A stretch of DNA of 47,187 nt from a virus (IMGVR_UViG_3300047324_000048:1-47187); one strand, 5' to 3'. Positions 13,915 to 40,527 are shown, counted from the first letter of the stretch. Notes: generated from the letters alone by a model not told the origin. A program made the numbers and translations.

Positions 13915-15234
13915 ATGAAGGCACGTTCCTGGCGACAAGCGTGCGCCATGCTCCTTGCGGTGCTCGGCGTGGGCGCCGTAGCGTTGGGGCAAAACTACCC
14001 GCCGGCGGTTCAGAAAGGTTTCACCCTCACAACGGCTTCGCCGTCGTATATTGTGAGCGGCCTCAACGGCCAATCCAACTGCACCGTGACGATCGCCAGC
14101 GGTGCGACCTACGGCAGCGGCACGTTGTCGTTCTACACCTCGGGCGACAACGGCACGACCTACACCCTCACAACCGGCATCCCCGATCTGGGCAACCCGA
14201 CCTCCGGGGGGTCGCAGACGACCACAGGCAGTCCGGTCAAATACACCGTGCCCACGGCCGGGCAGACCAACCTGGAATTGATCCTCGCCGGTTCAACCGG
14301 AGCGAGCGTGTCGGGAACGGTCAACTGTAACGCGGGCGTGGCCCGCATCGGCGGCGCTGGGGGCGGCGGGCCAACGCCGACCCCCCTGCCATCGAGCTTG
14401 ACGTTTTCAAAACTCGTCTGCACGACGCCGGTCTTGTGCAGCCCAAGTACCGGCCCGACGCCCGCGGTAGGCTTTACAAACGGCCCGTCGTTTACCACGC
14501 TCACGCTGCCCGGGATTACGAACGCCGGGCTCCTGGGCACGACGGCCTCCGGGCAGGTTGAGAGCGTGGCGTTCCCCACCCCTGGACCGTTGACTGGCGG
14601 CAATTGCTGGCAGATCACCACGACCACCCCCGGCCCGGTCTATCAGGGCAACTACACCTGCGCGACGCCCTACCCAACGCCAAGCGTCAACGCGACGGCG
14701 ACGGCCTGCGGCACGGCCGTATCGGCCTCTGGGCTCACGGTATCGGTGCCGGTGTGTCCAAGCCCGTATCCCACTCCTACCGCTTTCGCGACGGCTACCT
14801 CGTGCGGCGCTCCGGTCGCGGCCTCGGGCCTGACGATCAGCGTGCCGGTATGCCCATCGCCCTATCCCACGCCGACCACGCCCGTGCTGCGCGCGAAACT
14901 TGCGATTGCGCTCGGAGCGAACCCCGGCGTCCAACAAACGTCTTTCACGTTTCCGGTACAGCAGATCGTTGGCTACACCGCCGGCGAGATCACTGAACTG
15001 CGCGTAGCGTGCGCAACCACGGGGACCAGCAGCACGACGTTTTCGGCGACCGATGTGACGAGCACCACGACTATCGGCACCATCACGCTCACCTCGTCCT
15101 CGCTCACCAACACCGTGACCCTGGGTTCACCGTATGCGTTGACTGCTGGGCACGTGCTTACCATGTCGGTCACGGCGGCGGGCGGACACGGCAACTGCTC
15201 GTTGATCGCCGAAGGTCAGCAGCAAGCGTTCTAA
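13915..15234 (+). CDS. exported repeat protein with Pro-Thr spacers (virion or surface protein)
   Basis: 439 residues. Residues 1-26 are a classical Sec signal peptide (RSWRQ, then AMLLAVLGVGAVALG), cleavage likely after Gly25. A beta-sandwich-like domain follows to about 145, bounded by single cysteines (NCTVTI to NCNAG), then a Gly/Pro-Thr-Pro linker. Two ~33-residue repeats come next, ending in CPSPYPTPT with cysteines spaced for disulfides, then a C-terminal beta domain. GGAAAGG precedes the ATG. A similar first domain is in the protein at 20174-22105. Signal peptides are rare on virion proteins, so this may be secreted to the cell surface or assembled in the periplasm. No known family. 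Confidence 0.7.
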   Translation: MKARSWRQACAMLLAVLGVGAVALGQNYPPAVQKGFTLTTASPSYIVSGLNGQSNCTVTIASGATYGSGTLSFYTSGDNGTTYTLTTGIPDLGNPTSGGSQTTTGSPVKYTVPTAGQTNLELILAGSTGASVSGTVNCNAGVARIGGAGGGGPTPTPLPSSLTFSKLVCTTPVLCSPSTGPTPAVGFTNGPSFTTLTLPGITNAGLLGTTASGQVESVAFPTPGPLTGGNCWQITTTTPGPVYQGNYTCATPYPTPSVNATATACGTAVSASGLTVSVPVCPSPYPTPTAFATATSCGAPVAASGLTISVPVCPSPYPTPTTPVLRAKLAIALGANPGVQQTSFTFPVQQIVGYTAGEITELRVACATTGTSSTTFSATDVTSTTTIGTITLTSSSLTNTVTLGSPYALTAGHVLTMSVTAAGGHGNCSLIAEGQQQAF

Positions 15235-15995
15235 TGCGCGCACTGTTCATCGCTCTGGCCCTGCTCCTGGCGACCGCGCAAGCCGCGAGCGCGTCGGCTT
15301 TCTCGACCTATGTGCTCTCGCTCAACCCGAGCGTGTTTTACGAGCTTGACGAAACGACCGGCACGATCGCCTATGACGCATCGCCAAATGCGGACAACGC
15401 AACCATCGAAACGCCTGGGTCAATCACGCTGGGCGTGCCGGGGCTTGACGGTAGCGGCGGCACGGCCTACAACTTCGGCGCAACAAGTTCGTATGTAAGC
15501 ACGGCTGCCGCGTTGTCGCACGTCGGCAACCAGACGTTCATCTTCATCATCAGTGCGTCGACCTATACGATTTCGACGTACCAAAACATCGTGAGCGTTC
15601 GCAACGCTTCGGCTGGGATTCAGAACGGACACCCAGCATGCGGCGGCGATTACAACGGCGGGGTCGGCCTGGTCGCGTCCGGGTACGTCCTTACCGCTGG
15701 CACGCCGCACTTTCTCGCGCTGGTCGGCAACGGGATTACGTCCTCAGCGAGTTTGGACGGTGGCCCGCTCTCGGTTATTAGCAGCAGTGTACAGTGTGCC
15801 GGTTCGCAAAGCGTTGGCGGACCCGTTCGCATTGGTGCAGGCTACTACGGGTCAAGTTCATTCGTTGGCGTGGTCGATGACGTGGCGATCTTCCCGGCTG
15901 CGTTGACGAATAGTGAGCTATGCGAAATGGCCTCGCTCGCCGGGTACGGGCAGAACTGTTCCGTTGGCGACGGCCTGTTTTTGGGGAGCTGGTAG
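15234..15995 (+). CDS. exported LamG / concanavalin-like lectin-domain protein
   Basis: 253 residues. A textbook signal peptide covers residues 1-22 (MRALFIALALLLATAQ, cleavage near ASA). The rest has the LamG jelly-roll pattern: SVFYELDETTGTIAYDAS (the usual YrLdE...DsSG opening), TAYNFGATSSYVS, QTFIFIISA, PHFLALVGNG, SASLDGGPLS and a closing FVGVVDDVAIFPAALT. LamG domains bind carbohydrates, so it could recognise or bind the host envelope from outside or within the periplasm. The start ATG overlaps the previous TAA by one base, and the endolysin follows directly. Confidence 0.75.
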   Translation: MRALFIALALLLATAQAASASAFSTYVLSLNPSVFYELDETTGTIAYDASPNADNATIETPGSITLGVPGLDGSGGTAYNFGATSSYVSTAAALSHVGNQTFIFIISASTYTISTYQNIVSVRNASAGIQNGHPACGGDYNGGVGLVASGYVLTAGTPHFLALVGNGITSSASLDGGPLSVISSSVQCAGSQSVGGPVRIGAGYYGSSSFVGVVDDVAIFPAALTNSELCEMASLAGYGQNCSVGDGLFLGSW

Positions 15996-16448
15996 ATGCC
16001 GCAATTAAATAATGCTGGGCTGGAACTCATCAAGAGCTTTGAAGGGTTCTCGCTGACCGCGTACCCCGATCCGGGAACCGGCGGCGAGCCGTTCACGATC
16101 GGATGGGGCCATACGGGCGGCGTGCAGCCGGGCGAGGTCATCACCGTCGAGCAAGCGCAAGCGTTTCTCGAATCCGACTTACAAACGGCCGAGGAGTGCG
16201 TGAGCGGTGCGCTCACCCGCGATGTGAACCCCAATCAGTACGCGGCCCTCGTGAGCTTTGCGTACAACGTCGGGTGCGGGGCGTTCGAAGGTTCTCGGGT
16301 GTTGTCATGCACGAACGCCGGGGATTGGCAAGGCGCGATAGCCGACTTTGCCCATTGGGTCAACGGCGCGAACGGCCCGCTTCCTGGCCTAATCCGGCGC
16401 CGCGCAGCCGAAGCCGCTCTCTACGCAACCGACTTGCCGAAAGACTAA
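15996..16448 (+). CDS. endolysin, GH24 lysozyme (muramidase)
   Basis: T4-lysozyme-like enzyme that cuts the glycan backbone of peptidoglycan. The 150-residue protein matches the family length. The catalytic triad is visible: Glu16 in KSFEGF, Asp25 in AYPDPG and Thr34 in FTIGWGHTGG, spaced as in T4 E11-D20-T26 with a small insertion. The C-terminal half has the usual NQYAALVSFAYNVGCGAF and GLIRRRAAEAALY helices. There is no signal peptide, so it needs a holin, possibly one of the membrane proteins at 31130-32024. The ATG directly follows the LamG stop. Confidence 0.9.
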   Translation: MPQLNNAGLELIKSFEGFSLTAYPDPGTGGEPFTIGWGHTGGVQPGEVITVEQAQAFLESDLQTAEECVSGALTRDVNPNQYAALVSFAYNVGCGAFEGSRVLSCTNAGDWQGAIADFAHWVNGANGPLPGLIRRRAAEAALYATDLPKD

Positions 16449-16463
16449 GAAAGGACCTGGTTT

Positions 16464-17282
16464 GTGAATATCCTGCGGAATCTGTGGAACAACGTCAACC
16501 GGCCGCTCCCGGCATGGCTGACCTTGACGTTGATTCTTGGGGCAAGCGCCGTGGCGGCGGTGCCCACCTATACTGGCCAAATCGCGGCGTACACCACCAC
16601 GGCGGGCACTGTCCCACTGACGGTTAAGGGCGCGTCTACGGGCACGGCCAACTTGGCAAACTTCAACAACAGTAGCGGCAGCAATCTCGCAAACATCGAC
16701 TACCTCGGCGATGTAACCGCGGTCGGAGGCACGTTCAGTGGCGGTTTGTCGGTCAGCGGCGGAAAACTGTATGTAACTAACGGCGGCATTTTGCAAACGA
16801 GCGGCGCATCGACGAACCTCATGCAACCGATAGCGCTGGATGGGTTAGGCGCTGTGTCTCTTCGAGCGTGTTGCTCGCTTTCGGGAATCGGTAGCACCGG
16901 GCCGTTAGAGTCGACCACGACCACGACGGCCACCCCCGGCCCGGTGCCACCGTGTTTCGGCTTTTCGGGCAACGCTTGCCCATACGCAACGGAACATATC
17001 GTCCACGGCATTATCACGGACACGTACAGCGGCAGTTGTACCGCGCACACGACTTGCACGATGACCAATGGGGGAGTAGCGGGACAAACCTTAACGGGAG
17101 CGGCAGTGTTTACGAGCGCCTCAACATACGTCTGCTCTGGCATCGACGAAAACACCAACGCGCTCCTGGTCGCGCTCCCGGCTTCCGGGACGGGGTTCTT
17201 TTACGCTACGTACAACGCGGCAAACAGCACAATCTCGGGCAGCACGGCGGCATCGATCGTAACCCTCTGCGAGGGGCACTAG
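16464..17282 (+). CDS. exported or membrane-anchored fibre-like protein, 272 aa
   Basis: Starts at GTG 16464 behind an AAAGGA ribosome site. Residues 18-33 (AWLTLTLILGASAVAA) form a signal peptide or anchor after a basic-polar N-terminus. The next part reads like phage fibre or tailspike beta-helix sequence, with NFNNSSGSNLANIDYLGDVTA and GGTFSGGLSVSGGKLYV. A Cys-pair (RACCSL) and a Pro-Gly linker follow, then a C-terminal beta domain with cysteines in pairs. Resembles a tail-fibre fragment fused to a signal sequence. No specific family recognised. Confidence 0.65.
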   Translation: MNILRNLWNNVNRPLPAWLTLTLILGASAVAAVPTYTGQIAAYTTTAGTVPLTVKGASTGTANLANFNNSSGSNLANIDYLGDVTAVGGTFSGGLSVSGGKLYVTNGGILQTSGASTNLMQPIALDGLGAVSLRACCSLSGIGSTGPLESTTTTTATPGPVPPCFGFSGNACPYATEHIVHGIITDTYSGSCTAHTTCTMTNGGVAGQTLTGAAVFTSASTYVCSGIDENTNALLVALPASGTGFFYATYNAANSTISGSTAASIVTLCEGH

Positions 17283-17284
17283 CG

Positions 17285-18118
17285 TTGATCGAGTGGCTGC
17301 GGCGCATTGTTGATCCGCGTGGACCGCTCGGTGCGGTCCTTTCGCCAGCCGACGTTTACAAAGAACGCGCTGGCCTTCCCGTTGCCACGCCGCACGCCGC
17401 CCGCCCGTTTGGGACGACGGCTGCGGTGGAGCGCGCTCTCGCCCCCGCGCGATTCGTTTCCGTCAACGACGCGGCGCCCGGGCCAAAGGTGCGAGCCGTG
17501 TCGGCGTTCATCGAAGAAGAATGGGCGCCCGTCTACGCGACCGCCAAGACGCTGGCTGAGGTGCAACGCTTGGCGGCCAGCGGGCCAACGCTCATCGGCT
17601 GGAGGGTGTCGCAGCGCCCTCGATCGCCGCACTGCGACTGCACGACCGCTCGATTCACCAAGCGTGGTGACGAGTGGGTACACGAAGCCTGCGGTCGCAC
17701 CGGCCAGCACCTCACCGACGAGGAGTTCATCGAAATCGCACAAACGCTCTCGATCCAGGCCAGCGACGAGTACTACAACGGCCTCTATCCGACCATCCCG
17801 GGCGGTACGGACGAAATCGTGATCGACGGCGAGTTGCTGCGCGGCCAGCCGACTTACGATGCCAATGGCAAGATGACGCACGACGGCATCGTGCGCGGTA
17901 CGGTCATCAAGCACGGTCGGACGGAGTACCGCGAGAAAACGAAGGGCATGGTGCTGTGGGATAAGGGCGTCGTCAAAGAACGTGAGAAGGCGATTGCCGC
18001 CGAGGCCGCTGCGCCCATCGCCAGCGTCAAGGAAGCGCTGGAGGCGACTGCCGGAGCGGTGCTTCCCATGCGGCGGGCGTTGCCGAACCCGCGCTACGAT
18101 CGGATGAGCGCGGTCTAG
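17285..18118 (+). CDS. hypothetical protein preceding the portal, 277 aa
   Basis: Starts at TTG 17285 three bases after the previous stop, with GAGGGG as ribosome site. The first 80 residues are polar and Ala/Arg-rich. A metal-site-like HCDCTTARFTKRGDE...HEACG lies near residues 115-140, followed by a helical middle and a strand-rich end with VIDGELLRGQPTYD. The last ~70 residues are a long Ala/Glu helix (EREKAIAAEAAAPIASV). Located directly before the portal, so possibly a head-assembly or portal-associated protein. No family recognised. Confidence 0.6.
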   Translation: MIEWLRRIVDPRGPLGAVLSPADVYKERAGLPVATPHAARPFGTTAAVERALAPARFVSVNDAAPGPKVRAVSAFIEEEWAPVYATAKTLAEVQRLAASGPTLIGWRVSQRPRSPHCDCTTARFTKRGDEWVHEACGRTGQHLTDEEFIEIAQTLSIQASDEYYNGLYPTIPGGTDEIVIDGELLRGQPTYDANGKMTHDGIVRGTVIKHGRTEYREKTKGMVLWDKGVVKEREKAIAAEAAAPIASVKEALEATAGAVLPMRRALPNPRYDRMSAV

Positions 18119-18119
18119 C

Positions 18120-20177
18120 ATGAGTTCCGTTTTCGGGGCCGATGCCACAACACTGACGCAGCCGGCGGCTGGATGGTTTGGCGGGCAACCCCCGGACCAG
18201 GGCGGCCCGCAGATTCAGCGTTCGCGCAAAGAGAGCCCGATGGTGAAGTGGGCTCGCGAAACGCGCGCGACGCTCAAGCGCGAGCGGCAGGCGGCGACCG
18301 AGGACATGCGCCGCAACACGAACCTTGCGCGCGGCGGCACGCCCTGGTGGCGCGACCGGCCGAAATGGAAGATCGGCACGAAGCTGAATTTCTGTGCGAC
18401 CGTCCCGCTTACGTGGACGGCCATTCTTTGCGATGCGAAGCCAAGCGTGTCGTACTCAACGATCGACCCGAAGAAGCAGTACCTCGCCGACCTGGCGACC
18501 GCGGCATGGAACAAGGCCTTCACGGACGGGATGTTTGAGAAGAAAATCCACGACTGCATCTTGAATTCGCGCGTGCAAAAGAGCGGCTACCTGCGGCTTA
18601 CGTTCGACCCGATTGGTCACGGCGGCAAAGGGCAGCCCGTGCTCAAGATGATCCGCGGCATGGACGTCTACATGGACCGCAATGCGTCCAACGTCTACGA
18701 CGCCGAGATCATCCACTACGACACGAATGAGAGCTACGGCTCCATCTGCGCGCGTTACCCGCACGTACGCGAGAAACTCCAGCACAAGTACGAGCGCAAC
18801 CGCGACCAGGACGACGGGCAGAACGCGAGTTTGCTTGCGTTTCCGGCTTCGTACACCATGCCGACCGGGCTCACGGTCACGACGCCTTCATACGCCGGCT
18901 CACCGAACCCGCCGGACAGCGCAAGCGGTTCCTCGGGGCTGCAAGTGTGGGAGTTCTGGACCCGGCCGCGCAAGACCGTCGAGGTCGATCGCATCCAATG
19001 GCTCTCCTCGGGCGACCCGGCCACCCGGCCGAAAATGTTCAAGACGATCGATCCGGCCGACGCGGAGCCCATGCGCCGGATCGTGACCGAAGGCAATGTC
19101 ATCTACGAAGTCCCCGAGTCGATCGCCGACGCGCTCGCCGCCGCGCAGGGCTTCGGCGGGATCAAAATCCTCTCGGACGTTGCGGCGCTGGAGTGCATTA
19201 CCGAACCGGCGAAATATCCGCTGTACCCGAACGGCCGGCTGGTGACCATCGTCGACCAGGATATCGAAGCCGACGATCGGATGAGCCCGCTGGGCTATAT
19301 CCCGTTCGTTCAGATCAGCGCCAACTCAGACCCGGCAGGCGGCCAGTATGGCCCGTGCGACGTCGACCTGATTGCCGACGTCTACGAGCAACTCGTGCGG
19401 CTCGTTTCGCTCGTTCACGACAACGCGAACCTCGCCGGCAATTCCATCTGGCGTATCCCGATCGCGGCGGAAATCTCCAACGACGATATCACCAATGCGC
19501 CGGCGAGCATCCAGCGCGAGGACCTGCTCTGTCTCAAGTACGGCAAGCGGGAACCGGCGCCAGACATGCCGCCGTACATCGCAAACCACATCAAGTTCCT
19601 GGTCGATCAAATCAAAGAACTCTCGGGGCTCTCGGACGTCATGTTGGGCAAGATGGCGCCCAAGCAGCAAATCTCAACGGAAACCATGTCGATGCACCAA
19701 GAGGCGTCCGGCGTGCGGTTCCGGGATGGCCTCTCGTCCGTGTCCGAAGCGATGCAGATTTTGGGCGAGCAGTTCCTTGAACTTATGGCCCGGTTCTACA
19801 CCGAACCCGTGGTCGTGCAGGTCAAGAATGCCGCGGGCGTGCGCGAGGGCGTGCCGTTCTTGGGGACCTACCTCACCGAACCGTTCGTGGTTGAAGCGAA
19901 GGCCGGCAGCCGCCAGCCCAACAGCCCGAGCGCTCGGCTGAACACGATGCTAAACATGAAGAACGCTGGCGTGCCCGTATCGATCGATACGGTCTTTGCG
20001 TTGCTGGAAGAGATCGGCTCCATCCCCTCGGCGGCGGCGGCTATGCGGCTGATCGAGACGCAGCGCGCCGACCCGAAGCAGGCGTGGAAAGTTTTGGGTT
20101 TGGCGCAGCCGGGGCAGCAGCAATCCAAGAAGCCCGGGTCACGGAGTTCGAAGAAACAAGGAGCGGCAGCGGGATGA
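18120..20177 (+). CDS. portal protein, P22-like
   Basis: Dodecameric DNA gateway of the capsid, 685 residues, close to P22-type portals. Recognisable blocks: an N-terminal basic helix, WWRDRPKWKIGTKLNFC, LRLTFDPIGHGG with the strand of the wing, a CITEPAKYPLYPNG turn, DIEADDRMSPLGYIPF and YEQLVRLVSLVHDNANLAGN (stem helix). GLSDVMLGKMAPKQ and MHQEASGVRFRDGLSSV follow (crown helices), then an unstructured basic tail. It starts just after the previous gene and its stop overlaps the start of the next by ATGA. Placement ahead of the scaffold-capsid genes is standard. Confidence 0.9.
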   Translation: MSSVFGADATTLTQPAAGWFGGQPPDQGGPQIQRSRKESPMVKWARETRATLKRERQAATEDMRRNTNLARGGTPWWRDRPKWKIGTKLNFCATVPLTWTAILCDAKPSVSYSTIDPKKQYLADLATAAWNKAFTDGMFEKKIHDCILNSRVQKSGYLRLTFDPIGHGGKGQPVLKMIRGMDVYMDRNASNVYDAEIIHYDTNESYGSICARYPHVREKLQHKYERNRDQDDGQNASLLAFPASYTMPTGLTVTTPSYAGSPNPPDSASGSSGLQVWEFWTRPRKTVEVDRIQWLSSGDPATRPKMFKTIDPADAEPMRRIVTEGNVIYEVPESIADALAAAQGFGGIKILSDVAALECITEPAKYPLYPNGRLVTIVDQDIEADDRMSPLGYIPFVQISANSDPAGGQYGPCDVDLIADVYEQLVRLVSLVHDNANLAGNSIWRIPIAAEISNDDITNAPASIQREDLLCLKYGKREPAPDMPPYIANHIKFLVDQIKELSGLSDVMLGKMAPKQQISTETMSMHQEASGVRFRDGLSSVSEAMQILGEQFLELMARFYTEPVVVQVKNAAGVREGVPFLGTYLTEPFVVEAKAGSRQPNSPSARLNTMLNMKNAGVPVSIDTVFALLEEIGSIPSAAAAMRLIETQRADPKQAWKVLGLAQPGQQQSKKPGSRSSKKQGAAAG

Positions 20178-22105
20178 GACTTGCGTTTGCGGCTTTGGTG
20201 GCCTCGGCGCTCTTGGCGCTCGCCCTCTGCTCGCAGCCCCGTGCGGTGATCGCTCAAGCCTCACCGATTACCTACGGGCCGACCACGTACACGCAGAGTA
20301 CGGCCATGCCCACGATCGCGATTGATCCAAGCTTCGATACGTGTACGTTCACGATCTCGGCGATCAGTGGAACGATCAGTGCTGTCCCCTACGCGACGGG
20401 GCCTGGTGGAACCGATCTGCTTTCACCACCTGGCACGCAAACTACAGCCGGAACGTACAGCGGCTCAACCGGGGCGTACACCTCGTTCTTTCTGCGCTTA
20501 ATCTTGCCGCACGTTGGCGGGTCCGTGACGGCAACGGAAACGTGCTATCGCGCAGCGCCCACGCCATCGCCATCGCCTACCCCAACCCCAATCCCGCCGG
20601 CCGCTGCGGTCACGGTGCTGCCGGGCATCAACCCGTGGCCTGTGACCTGCGTCACGGGGTGCCCGACGCCCATCCCTTTCCCCAGTGCGTTCTACGTGAC
20701 CGGGCCATTCCCAACGCCTATCCCGTTCCCGTCCGCATTCTTTGTTACGGGCAACTTCCCAACGCCGATACCCTGGAACACCGGCTCACCCCAGCCCGTC
20801 ACCTGCGTGTCCGGCTGCACGGGTTCCTACCCCACCCCGATCGCCAGCGTCTTCGTTAGCAATACGCCCGGCGTGGTCGTGCAGAACGCGACGACCGCGC
20901 CCTTTGCGACCTGGGTGCCGGTCAACGTCGCCTCGTCGGTTCCGCTCACCGCTACCGTCAACACGCCCGCGCCGTGCGGCACGGCAACGTGCAGCGTCCT
21001 CGTTTGGCCCGGCATTACGCCGTTCCCGGTGACGACGCCGCCGCCCATGACGATCACGCCGTTCCCCGGCCTGACTCCAGCGCCGTGCTCCACCGCAACG
21101 TGCTCGACGGTTGCGTGGCAGGGCGGCACCTGGACGGTCACGGTGAACACGCCCGCGCCGGTCGCGACGGTCTTTGTTGCGAATACGCCCGGCGTCACGA
21201 TCCAGAATACGCCCGGCGTGAACGTGCAAAACACGCCAGCGCCCTACGCGACGGCGACGACGCTCATCGCGCATTCGGACGTAAACATCACGGTGCCTTA
21301 TGGCATCGGTGCGTGCAGCCTTCAGCCGAGTACCGTGAACATCACCGTCACCGGAAACACCTCCGGCACAAGCACGTTCTTCGACCTGCCGGTTTACGAT
21401 CCAACGCAAAATCCCCCGTATCAGGCAAGCGGTGTTGTTTCCGCGTCGGGCGTGGGACTGTTCAGCGCAGCGGGCCTCAACACGCTGCAAATCGTCAACA
21501 ATACGGGCGCATCCGGGTCGTTCAGCCTCGCATGTCAGCCCGCCCCGCTCGCGGCGATGCCGAACATCTTCGCTTCGCCCGCGCCCGCATCGATTGCCAC
21601 GAGCGCCCCTGCGCTCAACGTCACGAATCAGCAGTACATCTACAACGGCGGAACGGCCTACCCACGCGCCGCCGCGCCCTCGCCTGCGCCCAGCGGATTG
21701 CCCGCGCTCGGCTACAACGCCGCAGGTGCAGCAGCGCCGATCATCTGCACGCAAAGCGCGTCGTCGAACGGGTTTACTTCCCCAGCTTCGCTCGTAGCTG
21801 GCGTGTCGGGAAAGCAGATTTACATTTGTGAGATCGACTTATCGCTGACGAACGTCGGGTCAGCGGCGGCTGGCTACACCGGCTCACTGGTATACAGTTC
21901 AAGCTCAAGCTGCACGTCGCCCACTACACTGAAAAGCTGGTATAACTATATCGCGAGTGCGGTGGGAGTTACGCAGACCAACTATGCGATTGGTAACGGG
22001 GTGGGCCTCGTCGCAAAACCCGTTCCTGCGGGTGACACGTTGTGCTCCGAAAGCAGCAGCGCGAACGAGTACATGTTCGTCAACATCATGTACGAGCAGT
22101 TCTAG
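20174..22105 (+). CDS. large exported repeat protein with Pro-Thr spacers, 643 aa
   Basis: Starts at ATG 20174, overlapping the portal stop. Residues 1-27 form a signal peptide (RLAFAALVASALLALAL). A Cys-bounded beta domain (DTCTFTI to TETCYRA) resembles the first domain of the 13915 protein. A PTPSPSPTPTP linker follows, then many short repeats with patterns such as PTPIPFPSAFYVTG, VTCVSGC, NTPGVTIQ and CGTATCS, and a C-terminal beta domain. Cysteines occur in close pairs, typical of oxidised, exported protein. It probably sits on the cell surface or virion. No family recognised, and such a gene between portal and scaffold is unusual. Confidence 0.7.
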   Translation: MRLAFAALVASALLALALCSQPRAVIAQASPITYGPTTYTQSTAMPTIAIDPSFDTCTFTISAISGTISAVPYATGPGGTDLLSPPGTQTTAGTYSGSTGAYTSFFLRLILPHVGGSVTATETCYRAAPTPSPSPTPTPIPPAAAVTVLPGINPWPVTCVTGCPTPIPFPSAFYVTGPFPTPIPFPSAFFVTGNFPTPIPWNTGSPQPVTCVSGCTGSYPTPIASVFVSNTPGVVVQNATTAPFATWVPVNVASSVPLTATVNTPAPCGTATCSVLVWPGITPFPVTTPPPMTITPFPGLTPAPCSTATCSTVAWQGGTWTVTVNTPAPVATVFVANTPGVTIQNTPGVNVQNTPAPYATATTLIAHSDVNITVPYGIGACSLQPSTVNITVTGNTSGTSTFFDLPVYDPTQNPPYQASGVVSASGVGLFSAAGLNTLQIVNNTGASGSFSLACQPAPLAAMPNIFASPAPASIATSAPALNVTNQQYIYNGGTAYPRAAAPSPAPSGLPALGYNAAGAAAPIICTQSASSNGFTSPASLVAGVSGKQIYICEIDLSLTNVGSAAAGYTGSLVYSSSSSCTSPTTLKSWYNYIASAVGVTQTNYAIGNGVGLVAKPVPAGDTLCSESSSANEYMFVNIMYEQF

Positions 22106-23163: not shown

Positions 23164-23242
23164 TGCGGGCGGCGGGCTGGCAGTCCGACCAGGTTTCATA
23201 GGCCAGGGGAAAGCCGCGTTCGATTCGCGGGCTACGCAACCA
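23164..23242 (+). other. tRNA-like element (degenerate), T-arm followed by ACCA
   Basis: CCGCG-TTCGATT-CGCGG (23214-23230) is a perfect tRNA T-arm with the GTTCRANYC signature, followed by GCTACGC, A and ACCA at 23239-23242. Counting back 79 bases gives weak counterparts for the other arms: a CGG/CCG D-stem with GG in the loop, a CAT anticodon loop with one mismatch in its stem, and an acceptor with about five of seven pairs. U8 is missing. It looks like a decayed tRNA or a tRNA 3'-end copy such as an attachment site, not a working tRNA. Confidence 0.3.
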
Positions 23243-31129: not shown

Positions 31130-31375
31130 ATGTTCAAGCAACTGAAGTGGGCTCGCGTGGTGGCCTATATCTCGGGCGGCGGCCTGAGCAGCGTCTTTGC
31201 GCTGGGCGGCCCGCACTGGACGAGCATCGGTATGGCGATCGTCGGCGTTGCCGGCGCGATCGGCGCGCTCATGCCCGCGACCTCGATCGTCCAAGATTCA
31301 CCCGTGCTGGCAAAGAATGGTACGGGTATTGTCGGCACCAATCTTTCCCTCCCTCTCCCACCGAAAGGACCGTGA
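31130..31375 (+). CDS. small membrane protein, possible holin
   Basis: 81 residues, with one or two membrane spans: VVAYISGGGLSSVFAL and SIGMAIVGVAGAIGALM. The N-terminus is MFKQLKWAR (positive) and the C-terminal tail is polar and Pro-rich. Holin-like size and architecture, four bases behind the fibre gene and close to a second membrane protein at 31698. No recognised family, so the holin call is tentative. Confidence 0.5.
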   Translation: MFKQLKWARVVAYISGGGLSSVFALGGPHWTSIGMAIVGVAGAIGALMPATSIVQDSPVLAKNGTGIVGTNLSLPLPPKGP

Positions 31376-34217: not shown

Positions 34218-35617
34218 TGGCTGGGTTCTCGCCGCTCAACGCGCCCAACCCGTTGCTCTCCCAGGATAGCTACGGGCCGCAGATGCCTTCGGTGAACCTT
34301 GCTCCAGGGTACACGTTTCCGACCCCGGCCGGCTCGAACGTGCCCCCTGGGCCAAGCGCGCCGAACCCAAAGCTCGCGCTGCCCAAAAGCGCGAACATTC
34401 CGCCGCCTCCCAACCCCGCCGCGGCGCCGCCGAGGAGCGCATCCCCGCCCGCACCACCCGCGGCTGCTCCTGATCCAAGCGCGGATTCGATCGTACCGCC
34501 GCCAACGATGCAACAGGCGCAGTACCACGCCCCGAAACCCGGCATGGAGTACCTGGCTGCTGGGCTGGCGCTGCTCTTTCCCGGGGCACCGATCGCGCGG
34601 TTGGCCACGCAGTTCATAGCCGGGTCGCAACAGGGGGCCCAGCAGAGGTACGAACGCGAGCAGAAGCAAGACGATACGGCCAACCAGAACGCGACGGCGC
34701 AGTATCAGTACAAGCAGGCGCTCATTCAACGGGGCATCGACCCGAAGACGAACAAGCCGTTCGTGTTGCCGCCGGCTATGCAGAAAATGGCGGACGAAGC
34801 GTTGAACCCGAAGGCGCCTCTTGAGCAGGTGCTTGCGGCGCAGCGCGCGCTCGCAGGCTACTACGGCTCGATCGGCGCGACGGAGCCGGCCAAAGAGTAT
34901 GCCGACGACGCGAAAGCCTCGGCAGCGGCGCTTCAGAAGCAGCAGGACCAGGATCGGCAAGACTTCTTCGAGATGAAAAAGGAGGAGTACATCCAGGCGC
35001 ATGAGGACCGGCGCGCGGGCAATATGAACGATATCGAACGCGCACGGCTCAACGCCCAGGCTACGCATTGGGCGAACGAGGAGTGGGATCGCCGCTACGT
35101 CCCTTCGGCCGATACCGTTTACAATAGCCAGCACCCACGCAACAGCGAGGGTCAACCGAACGGGCCGAAGGCTCACGAAATGGCAACGAAGTGGCAGGGT
35201 GAATATCGCAACGCCCTGGAAACCGTAGACCCGCTCGCGGGCCAAACGCCGCAGCAGATCGCGGCGGCGGCGGCAAAGAATCACATGGACGTTGAACAGT
35301 ACCGAGCGGCGATGGCGGGCAAGCCGCCGAAACTTCAGCCGCAATGGCAACCGATCATCGACGCCTATCGGCAGCGGATTGAAAACTCGCCCGACCCGAC
35401 CGGCGAAGCGCAAAAGATCATCGCCGCTATTGAAAAGGACCCGGCGAAGGCCACCCCCGCGGGCGCCAATGGCGACGCCACCGGTATCCAAACGGTTATT
35501 GACCTTGTGCAGGGCGTTGCGGACTATACCGCTACGCGCAAGGGGGCATGGGGCGCCTGGGCAACGCCGAGCGGGGGAAGCAATGCCGCCGGGGGCCCTA
35601 CGTACCCGGGCCCGTAG
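34217..35617 (+). CDS. putative ejection protein, 466 aa
   Basis: Starts at GTG 34217. Residues 1-100 are Pro/Ala-rich and disordered. A membrane-like hydrophobic helix LAAGLALLFPGAPIARLA follows, then a Gln/Ala-rich coiled body with QGAQQRYEREQKQDD and AKASAAALQKQQDQDRQDFF, and a long helical C-terminal part. This is the composition of proteins injected with the DNA. It ends at TAG 35615-35617, but the overlapping -1 frame continues into a peptidase, so the two may be made as one fusion by frameshifting (see findings). Confidence 0.55.
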   Translation: MAGFSPLNAPNPLLSQDSYGPQMPSVNLAPGYTFPTPAGSNVPPGPSAPNPKLALPKSANIPPPPNPAAAPPRSASPPAPPAAAPDPSADSIVPPPTMQQAQYHAPKPGMEYLAAGLALLFPGAPIARLATQFIAGSQQGAQQRYEREQKQDDTANQNATAQYQYKQALIQRGIDPKTNKPFVLPPAMQKMADEALNPKAPLEQVLAAQRALAGYYGSIGATEPAKEYADDAKASAAALQKQQDQDRQDFFEMKKEEYIQAHEDRRAGNMNDIERARLNAQATHWANEEWDRRYVPSADTVYNSQHPRNSEGQPNGPKAHEMATKWQGEYRNALETVDPLAGQTPQQIAAAAAKNHMDVEQYRAAMAGKPPKLQPQWQPIIDAYRQRIENSPDPTGEAQKIIAAIEKDPAKATPAGANGDATGIQTVIDLVQGVADYTATRKGAWGAWATPSGGSNAAGGPTYPGP

Positions 35618-35964
35618 CGCACGCGATTCAAGCCGCGGGCGGCACCCCGCAATTGGCCGCAGCGGCGTCGGCGTTCCAAGGCTTCGATGAGTTTCCCATT
35701 ACGTCGGTCCACCGCACAAGCAACTCGGACGGCTCGGCAATCGGCGCCGGCCACCTCGAAGGGCGCGCGGTCGACGTCGCCGTACCGGATAGCAAAGAGG
35801 GGTTCGAGTACGTGGTGCGTGCAGCGCAGTCGGGGCAGTTCCAGAGCATCGGCACGAACCCGAAGTGGATTCCCGAATTGGAACGGTACTTCCCGAACGT
35901 ACACTTCTTCAGCGACTACAAGCAAACACACGCACATTTAGAGGTCGGGGATTGGAAGGGCTAG
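35548..35964 (+). CDS. M15-like D,D-carboxypeptidase / peptidoglycan endopeptidase
   Basis: Residues after about 23 form a small zinc peptidase: FPITSVHRTSNSDGSAIGAGHLEGRAVD (split here; zinc His and Asp lie in GHLEGRAVD), then an Asp-rich loop, and THAHLEVG at the end supplying the last zinc His. This matches the SxHxxGxAxD and HxH patterns of VanY/M15 D-Ala-D-Ala peptidases. Role: local peptidoglycan opening during DNA entry, as a virion lysin. The frame has an ATG at 35548 with a poor ribosome site, and lies -1 relative to the preceding 466-residue frame, so expression may be by frameshift. Confidence 0.7.
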   Translation: MGRLGNAERGKQCRRGPYVPGPVAHAIQAAGGTPQLAAAASAFQGFDEFPITSVHRTSNSDGSAIGAGHLEGRAVDVAVPDSKEGFEYVVRAAQSGQFQSIGTNPKWIPELERYFPNVHFFSDYKQTHAHLEVGDWKG

Positions 35965-38900: not shown

Positions 38901-40527
38901 GTTCCAGAAAGACTTGATGGACGCAACGACGACGCCGCTTCGCGAGCGATCGATCAAGGTGCCCGAGGGCTACTCGCTGGAAGCCGAGCAGGGCTACGGG
39001 CATACCTACGAGTGGACGGACCCCGACCCGAACACCGGCAAGCGCAAAGTGCGGCCGATGGACTACGTGCGCGATAGCTCGCTCATCAACTACTCCAAGA
39101 CGTTGACCCCGCAAGCGCAGCAGGACTTGCATTGGGTGCTCAAGGCGATGGGGCTTGCGTCGACGTTGCAGCGCATGGGCATCGTCGCCTTGCCGTTCGT
39201 TCACGCATTCAATAACCTCGGGATGCACGGGCTCCAAGAGGGCGTGGCGCCGCAACGGCTCTACGATGTGTACCGCGGCGCGTACAAGCCCGATCCCGCC
39301 ATGATTGAAGAAATGACCGATTGGGGCTACCGTCAGGGCGCGGCGGAAGAAGCCTTCCGCATGGGCAAAACCGATGTGCATGGCACGACGGCGGGGCCGC
39401 AGCGCCGGGCGATCATGGCAAACCGGTTGGGCAATACCGTAGCGCGCAAGACGGGCGAGCGGGACCTGGGCGATGCGGCCGAATCGATCGCTCGGCCGGC
39501 GATGGCGGTTGCGGACAAGTTCTCCGGCGGCTACAACCGCATGAACCATTGGCTGTTCGGGCAGGTGCAGGATGGGATTGCCGCGTCGATCTACGAGCGG
39601 CTGCGCAAGCCTGTTGCGCAAGGCGGGGAAGGGCTCTCGCCGGGTGAAGCGGTGCAGCGCGTCCTTAAGGCGGTAAGCGACCCGGCGAACATCACGCCGT
39701 TCGAGCGCCGTGCTGGGCTCGACAAGCTGTTCTACTTCTTGCCCTGGATGAAGACCGTGGTGCCGTTTCAAATCAAGAAGGGCCTCATCGACCCGAAGTG
39801 GTGGACCTCTCAGGTGTCGGGCATCCGCACGAACAACGAACTCCAAGGCTACGATGATCCGTCGCAGCCGTTCACGATGACCCTGAGCCGCCCGGACGAT
39901 CAGGGCCGCGTGCGTCGGGCGCCGTTGTTCACTCCGCAACGGGTGCTCGGTGCGGCTTCGGACGCGGTGCGTATCCCCGCGGACCTCTACGAAGGGGCGA
40001 CGTCGGACGGGCGCGGGTACGAACGCGCACTTACCGATGCGATGGCGCCGTTTAACTACGTGGCCGGCCACCTCGTAGCGCCGGCGGAACTCGGGTGGGA
40101 GGGCGTGCAGGCCGGGCTTGCCGCGCGATCCCCGGAGGGCGCCGCGTCGTTGCCGCCCTACAACCCGTTCTCCGCACCGCCCGGATCGAAGTTCCCAACC
40201 GGCGCGTACATCGCCAATGCGCTGGCGGCCGGGTTGCTGTCGCCGGTGGAGAAGGCCGAATCGATCGGTCAAACGATGCAGGGCGCCTCACCGATGGACT
40301 ACCTCACGCAGCTCCCGGCCGACGCCGCCATGTCTCTCATTGGTTCGACGCCCTACTTAATCACGGAGCAGAAGACCGCGCTGGAGAAGCGGCTTGACGA
40401 CCGGCTCAAGAACCCGCTGGAGAGGCGGAACGAGGCGATGCTGCGCCGGGAATTGCTTGAGGCGCAGCAGGCGGGGGATGAGGGTGCGTACGAGGACATT
40501 CTGAAGCAGCTTGACGCCGCTCCCTAG
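35968..40527 (+). CDS. large internal virion / ejection protein, 1519 aa
   Basis: Largest gene in the window, GGAAGGG before the ATG. N-terminal ~110 residues are Pro/Ala-rich, followed by a helical region with hydrophobic segments and Ala-rich helices, a charged middle with many Gln/Arg/Glu heptads, and a C-terminal third with blocks such as FVHAFNNLGMHGLQEG, YNRMNHWLFGQVQDG and FLPWMKTVVPFQIKKG. That last block resembles the large polyvalent or internal virion proteins of podoviruses that form the DNA-delivery channel. No lytic or RNA polymerase motif was found. The large open frame on the opposite strand is a shadow. Confidence 0.7.
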   Translation: MADDTEAWVQSLAGHAPAPTPPPAVGVAGLHLPDPATVKPVDRPTGDTHRASLLRQAVDAIDVPYAYEQALLGADRPSHAHLNAGDIVGPLGHIAVNLADPHVRARVGQVTQDLLQGGPSAVAENDLIFTRGWADRVLQDVNASDADRATATWVVNQPFWSGIAQGATEFMNPANDAVGGVLGTAGKILVRESPEVAGIVKGVQAAHAATTGAAMGAAGRTAARLTAPARARLMQAAGRAAVRVARATPLGARLFDRAAQKGPVQTAGGEAAPSVTDRLGAAGVHAAVRQEGTAHQLIRENQQKIMPLWDGLDVAQKQEMLRVSGRDAAGNPLHARNPEIKDPDPIPPTALDRVRARLTGKPAVPRPSMTIQERANAYRDWKIEQDRIAQSLGIRLEDEINPATGEVERGTGNVYDPNTHFNMKLYDQNPRFTGDIEKINQRLKGLAPNEATGQGIGKARIGVGDEEHSRANPIVNDEAWNDLHEDFDPAYQANQHIIESQTRIANAREAQRLNMMPSIDPATGRQRTQRLGDQAVPLNVRQEAPYEWQELDPATGKMVTKTGQGREARDLLDALEKKRIKAGAWEKTLADPAAQAHAAAVGRPLADFNTRSITAQRTGPYLARARQAIAAQRQVLSGLRRASNRAGGLAPIAQNLERSGARMDDALRANMKAAGAAARRAPEYEKAAQDAQEYHAQLQKAIDHAPTPTKRQITEVARAMFEQDMDEYGRAADAYHGVADELQRLPGNRGGIRPDWIRTRGPNGKSTWKLAGEWQELSEQRPKSRFIDWTKPKDDDPTGRIDSNIDAIATERNFLVPFSSGDELREWLERHPTPPKPPKYSQYLDRAQREITDMFQQADRAGKQRILEQIGMPDKGPAEALYQLRRQVAELKAGAARASKEAENRRFAERELGPGARASVAAQARAAAGLWQTAVGLDGDIARLNRDMQKAVTSTRDRLAQRRALTEAKLAISARFKKFQKDLMDATTTPLRERSIKVPEGYSLEAEQGYGHTYEWTDPDPNTGKRKVRPMDYVRDSSLINYSKTLTPQAQQDLHWVLKAMGLASTLQRMGIVALPFVHAFNNLGMHGLQEGVAPQRLYDVYRGAYKPDPAMIEEMTDWGYRQGAAEEAFRMGKTDVHGTTAGPQRRAIMANRLGNTVARKTGERDLGDAAESIARPAMAVADKFSGGYNRMNHWLFGQVQDGIAASIYERLRKPVAQGGEGLSPGEAVQRVLKAVSDPANITPFERRAGLDKLFYFLPWMKTVVPFQIKKGLIDPKWWTSQVSGIRTNNELQGYDDPSQPFTMTLSRPDDQGRVRRAPLFTPQRVLGAASDAVRIPADLYEGATSDGRGYERALTDAMAPFNYVAGHLVAPAELGWEGVQAGLAARSPEGAASLPPYNPFSAPPGSKFPTGAYIANALAAGLLSPVEKAESIGQTMQGASPMDYLTQLPADAAMSLIGSTPYLITEQKTALEKRLDDRLKNPLERRNEAMLRRELLEAQQAGDEGAYEDILKQLDAAP

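Follow-up and report, generated by a model that had tools for sequence, protein, structure and literature searches.

Four genes in the late region of an uncultivated phage, recorded as IMGVR_UViG_3300047324_000048 (47,187 bp; hereafter, the window), are predicted to encode proteins that leave the cytoplasm through the general secretion (Sec) pathway and fold with paired disulfides, a conclusion that is strongly inferred from sequence. An earlier note on this DNA had flagged the four open reading frames (ORFs), and each was found in place, i.e., P1 (13915..15234), P2 (15234..15995), P3 (16464..17282), and P4 (20174..22105), all on the + strand. With moderate confidence, we infer that these proteins act on the cell envelope or outside the cell around lysis, most likely by masking receptors or glycans. 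The specific reading that we favour, under which P1 to P4 represent a late, lysis-linked export cassette that masks surface glycans or receptors around lysis, is given a probability of roughly 0.4.

Predicted Sec signals

Signals were scored with a rule that combines the charge of the n-region, the hydrophobic core, and the cleavage motif (score cut-off, 9.3). P1, P2, P3, and P4 scored 12.0, 11.9, 9.7, and 11.3, respectively, which bears out the Sec signals proposed in the earlier note, and each protein has one single hydrophobic stretch, located at the N-terminus. Controls were clean; three of four known secreted Escherichia coli proteins were called and no soluble cytosolic protein scored at or above 9.3, while calls among 29 lambda proteins were confined to Lom, Bor, Rz, and Rz1, which are established exported or membrane-anchored proteins, and none of 18 T7 proteins was called (i.e., there were no false calls among the tested lambda and T7 proteins). 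The earlier note described such signals as unexpected beside endolysin and portal genes; no signal was detected in the other 15 virion or lysis ORFs of the window tested, except for a putative holin at 31130, which has an internal transmembrane segment. Signal-bearing proteins showed cleavage-type AxA or AxG sites, frequently with Gln at +1; probable cuts fall between G25 and Q26 in P1 and between A27 and Q28 in P4. False signals due to Prohead-type cleavage of capsid N-termini (PMC10367356) were considered; P1 to P4 are not capsid proteins.

Among known systems, lambda Lom and Bor are likewise phage-encoded and bear a Sec signal, with Lom located between tail genes, and the same rule recovers both; however, these are single genes, whereas up to five consecutive lectin- or fibre-type signal-bearing ORFs are found here, beside endolysin and portal genes in a late operon. 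Several genes of Porphyromonas gingivalis phages with unknown function have also been described as using the host general secretion pathway (PMC10367356), but these phages are unrelated and temperate, and the case made there consists of the signal and the +1 Gln only.

Cysteine parity

Among proteins that become oxidised once outside the cytoplasm, even Cys numbers tend to prevail (PMC7678975). Complete signal-bearing ORFs were selected on signal and location without regard to Cys content, and 35 of 37 such proteins, from the window's lineage and from unrelated phages, were even in mature Cys by the predicted cut. Within this total, the first set contributed 30 even proteins among 32 with Cys, and all five later-found ORFs were even as well, although one of the five is odd with a fixed cut and has a signal score of 7.3, below 9.3. 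In both odd cases, P4 and one protein of the relative G001, a Cys lies beside a badly placed cut, and use of the adjacent canonical site (VIA followed by Q in P4) turns both even; with sensible cuts, mature P1, P2, P3, and P4 contain 12, 4, 8, and 16 Cys, respectively, in line with the Cys pairs described in the earlier note. A fixed cut after residue 30 yielded 32 even proteins out of 33, and counting by homology cluster yielded 16 out of 17, which is the safer figure because the sequences are not independent. By contrast, control proteins from ten core families of the virion, sampled throughout the lineage, comprised 56 even and 59 odd ones; the difference between signal-bearing and core virion proteins corresponds to a Fisher p of about 1e-7, calculated on non-independent sequences. 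Cys content was 2.2%, as compared to 0.65% for the remaining virion proteins of the window. Such a bias towards even numbers is the mark of proteins that fold oxidatively beyond the cytoplasm.

These data bear on the suggestion that P1 to P4 are not exported and that each N-terminus is a hydrophobic segment left uncleaved on an ordinary virion protein assembled in the cytoplasm. While the location in the virion block and the existence of virions with disulfides would fit this suggestion, the AxA/AxG sites with frequent Q at +1, the even-Cys pattern, and the clean controls make it highly improbable.

Gene context of P1 to P4

P1 is the first gene of a rightward operon that is divergent from the terminase gene, and P1 to P4, the P22-like portal gene, and the major capsid gene share one strand, opposite to terminase. 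P1 and P2 meet at a TAATG junction, where the P2 start overlaps the last base of the P1 stop; directly 3' of P2 lies the endolysin gene (15996..16448, +; PF00959, E 2.7e-40; PHROG 7 endolysin), which encodes a T4-type phage lysozyme with no signal peptide. P3, which has a GTG start, stops immediately before a conserved non-exported gene with no assigned function (17285..18118, +), which by tblastn synteny is a landmark between terminase and portal in relatives. The portal gene (18120..20177, +; PF16510 and PHROG 156) and P4 share an ATGA junction, where the ATG of P4 overlaps the portal stop. Because these genes overlap and abut, P1 to P4 probably belong to one operon with endolysin and portal. 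Automatic gene calling overlooked P2 and P3 and produced spurious signals, and the protein list was therefore inspected by eye; the spurious signals included one for a methylase at 40406, i.e., a C-5 cytosine DNA methylase (PF00145; 40406-41650, - strand) at the right-hand edge of the virion block. An M15-type peptidase match below the Pfam cut-off (35548-35964), just upstream of a 1519-aa protein, may represent a second cell-wall enzyme in addition to the lysozyme at 15996.

Domains and predicted structures

P1 consists of a signal peptide, a Cys-bounded jelly-roll domain (residues 26-140), a Pro-Thr-Pro (PTP)-rich linker with regularly spaced Cys pairs, and a C-terminal beta-sandwich. In the AlphaFold model, the N-terminal beta-sandwich has a pLDDT of about 55-85 (mostly 75-86), the linker is disordered, and the C-terminal beta-sandwich is at about 60; matches of this model in the PDB are assorted jelly rolls, including XepA and YomS, the tip of a phage fibre, and modules that bind glycans. 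P2 combines a signal peptide with a LamG/ConA-like lectin domain, and the LamG assignment of the earlier note was upheld, with PF13385 scoring 29.5 bits against a Pfam cut-off of 27.6. P3 has a signal peptide, an RPLPxW lead, and a low-complexity body; its resemblance to a fibre stands, but no PHROG or Pfam family was matched. P4 comprises a signal peptide, a Cys-bounded beta segment, PTPIP/NTPGV repeats, and a C-terminal jelly-roll-like domain, which is modelled as all-beta with a pLDDT of 64. The structure nearest to this C-terminal domain by Foldseek is the KHP30 cement protein (E 0.011, not significant; Z 7.2), and since fold matches were all middling (Z under 8), we adopted the term "jelly roll" alone; a PDB sequence search with the profile of this domain gave no match. 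P1, P3, and P4 matched none of the known tail profile families in PHROG and Pfam, where absence from the library is no exclusion, and these profiles detected no virion-anchoring domain in P1 to P4. Both P1 and P4 have Pro-Thr-Pro spacers and each has a Cys-bounded beta segment, as had been noted, but their assignment to one domain family was not supported by profile comparisons, which gave E-values of 0.39 and 0.06. The structure predictions for P1 and P4 thus support beta binding modules and nothing more specific.

The match to XepA raises the alternative that P1 to P4 are lysis accessories, i.e., beta-sandwich proteins that, once exported, would assist in rupturing or detaching the envelope. 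Pentameric assembly and cytotoxic activity would mark a member of the XepA/YomS lytic-cassette proteins. XepA, of prophage PBSX, is an exported protein with two beta-sandwiches that was cytotoxic in plate assays (PMC6834076). The layout of P1 fits that expected of XepA and YomS, from Bacillus subtilis prophages (PMC6834076), in which linked, exported beta-sandwich domains are encoded near the endolysin; the P1 N-domain aligned to YomS with Z 8.2, and Foldseek matched P1 to XepA with an E-value of 7e-4. However, the TM-score to XepA is only 0.27, which represents a weak fold match, jelly rolls match many proteins, and a sequence relation was not shown; P1 furthermore stands apart by its signal peptide, its Cys of disulfide type, and its long Pro-Thr linker. 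While endolysin adjacency in several genomes and signal-bearing phosphoesterases in relatives (see below) also agree with a lysis role, many relatives lyse without such genes, and we consider this alternative doubtful.

Recurrence among relatives

Searches with portal and capsid identified 22 further records of one lineage (capsid 59-79% identical) in which core gene order is conserved; a terminase scan added no relatives. The homolog of the gene after P3 directly follows terminase in three records (L001, L002, and L007), and P1-P2-lysozyme-P3 thus represents an extra block in the window; no such genes were found in the same slots of relatives without the cassette. The post-portal slot, which holds P4 in the window, holds other lysis genes in relatives. 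Homologs of P1 (42-44% identical) lie downstream of a tail gene in G015, G016, G017, and G021; these keep the exported N-domain, with an invariant G-Q at the cut, while the remainder is swapped (LamG-like in G015, collagen-like in G016 and G017). P3 homologs with a similar N-terminus and a conserved RPLPxW lead are present in G012, G015, G016, and G021 (four records, three of them distinct).

The relocated P1 and P3 homologs, behind the tail gene of distant relatives, again adjoin an endolysin; in G016, five consecutive signal-bearing ORFs are followed by an amidase endolysin, with the P3 homolog preceding the amidase. In G009, the portal gene is immediately followed by a gene for a signal joined to one P4-type domain, with a lysozyme shortly downstream, and G001 encodes three signal-bearing proteins, two of them LamG-like; the P4 C-terminal domain is common to G001 and G009. 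Overall, late-block signal-bearing genes were found in 7 of 11 records over 36 kb and in none of the other four. The block recurs, but in shifting positions. Full-length P4 had no match in IMG/VR, and the P1 N-domain matched only within its own lineage.

Late blocks of G003, G016, and G021 also contain PF04185 phosphoesterases, which possibly have a phosphate-acquisition or envelope role. The copy in G016 (L074:6539-7996) has a signal-like start and one in G003 (L053:15140-16549) is of lipoprotein type; further matches lie at 19922-21055 in G003 and at G021:11408-12598. The presence of signal-bearing phosphoesterases in these blocks indicates action outside the cytoplasm. Just before the P3 homologs of G016 and G015 lie genes for mutually similar signal-bearing proteins of 90-91 aa with four Cys (L074:8243-8515 and L070:18697-18972). 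The same 54.6-kb G015 record carries an array of 32 tRNA genes (L070:1174-3930), while the window has a single tRNA-Met (23167-23238) and most scanned relatives have no tRNA.

The patchy distribution and the modular adhesin domains are also compatible with moron-type adhesins that alter host adhesion or aggregation, including in lysogens, as for lambda Lom. Lipoboxes in the P1 homologs of G015 and G016 (LGGC/LAGC), an integrase (PF00589) in G004, G020, and G023, and the Sec-signal genes of the temperate P. gingivalis phages (PMC10367356) fit this explanation. PF00589 is, however, absent from the window and from most relatives (records may be incomplete), and the genes are embedded in a late operon with overlapping starts and no excess of promoters was found, which makes a moron origin rather improbable.

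Similar genes in unrelated phages

Through its homolog in G001, the P4 C-terminal domain matches two cultured Synechococcus phages, Yong-M4-211 and Ssp-JY42. The latter encodes a 138-aa protein that consists of a signal and a P4-type C-domain; its gene follows fibre genes and precedes an M15 peptidase gene, and the next gene has a signal-like start. In six further IMG/VR contigs, the protein with the P4-type C-domain carries a signal in each case (6/6), and each contig has 1-3 extra signal-bearing ORFs beside this gene. Linkage to an endolysin thus extends from the window to the P4-type gene and lysozyme of G009, the P3 homolog and amidase of G016, and the Synechococcus block upstream of the M15 peptidase. 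The earlier note's proposal of several exported adhesin-like proteins is well supported by signals, even Cys numbers, and recurrence, but the feature is not unique to this phage, as about half of the relatives and several unrelated phages export other proteins in like manner. The outside roles listed there, from surface decoration, superinfection control, and aggregation to extracellular assembly, are candidates, and nothing positive pointed to the last of these. P2, P3, full-length P4, and the P1 domain of the L074 homolog had no match among cultured phages, where a low-complexity filter may hide some matches, and a portal search gave one weak match.

With regard to the host, when the capsid was searched against 84,980 genomes, the single match (72% identical) was the 3.3-kb contig L080, binned in a Hydrogenedentes metagenome-assembled genome; this match could reflect misbinning or hint at the host, and the contig is too short and too isolated for a host to be named from it. 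tRNAs were uninformative as a host clue, and we take the T4-type lysozyme to suggest a diderm host.

The unrelated contigs bear on a further alternative, under which P1 to P4 are virion appendages, i.e., exported fibres, spikes, or decorations that form disulfides in the periplasm and join cytoplasm-assembled virions at or after lysis. Tips are of virion type, with a signal-bearing tailspike-like protein in L088 (PHROG tail spike, E 5e-11) and a signal-bearing tail-fibre-like protein in L091 (PHROG, E 0.002, weak), and signal-bearing ORFs lie directly 3' of the major capsid and Bbp16-type genes in L089 and L090. In addition, the modelled C-domain of P4 is similar to the KHP30 cement protein, and the sole ordinary fibre found in the window is a gp53-like protein of 136 aa. 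As in tail fibres and tailspikes, the beta tips are modular and C-termini are swapped; however, proteins of the P1 to P4 type begin with a signal peptide where a fibre would have its virion-anchoring N-terminus, and their paired Cys are dense. Moreover, we know of no tailed-phage precedent, a signal is absent from the KHP30 cement protein itself, lineage-mates retain normal fibres at the tail locus, and some block members are enzymes. On balance, this alternative seems unlikely, if credible.

A proposed late, lysis-linked export cassette

Under our favoured reading of P1 to P4 as a late export cassette, these proteins would be expressed late, from the rightward operon shared with endolysin and portal, cross the inner membrane by Sec, have the signal removed, and acquire paired disulfides on folding in the oxidising environment beyond the cytoplasm. 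The set is modular, combining an exported beta-domain head, Pro-Thr-rich linkers that are disordered, and lectin- or fibre-type tips that can be exchanged (LamG, jelly roll, or collagen-like, and tailspike in other phages). The mature proteins would then attach to glycans or receptors on the surface of the host itself during the last phase of infection and lysis, and this attachment may keep progeny from re-adsorbing to the dying cell and its debris and shut out late superinfection. T5 Llp-type lipoproteins, which are exported and have been proposed to mask receptors and so protect progeny, offer a parallel, here with several lectin-like proteins. P1 to P4 of the window differ, however, in that they lack a canonical lipobox at a plausible cut and are not predicted to be lipoproteins.

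A number of points weigh against this reading. Late expression would allow only a short period for display at the surface before a lytic cycle ends, and the absence from the window P1 of the lipobox seen in its homologs indicates that surface anchoring is not general. Export was read from sequence with a home-made rule. In addition, disulfide networks occur in ordinary capsid proteins of Agrobacterium phage 7-7-1 (PMC12796354), and Cys content alone is thus no proof of export.

Discussion of exported phage proteins has usually centred on lone morons or lysis proteins. In the phages described here, genes of lectin or fibre type that combine signals with disulfide-paired Cys, and that have no functional name, form entire runs in the late virion and lysis region of several unrelated phage groups, and the even-Cys test offers a cheap means to find such genes in other viromes. 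It is improbable, in our estimate, that some tailed phages make fibre, spike, or decoration proteins that are exported by Sec, locked by disulfides in the periplasm, and mounted on virions at burst; if true, virion assembly would be completed outside the cytoplasm. Either phages alter the envelope of the dying cell more than has been assumed, or the periplasm may serve as a folding room for parts that are used outside.

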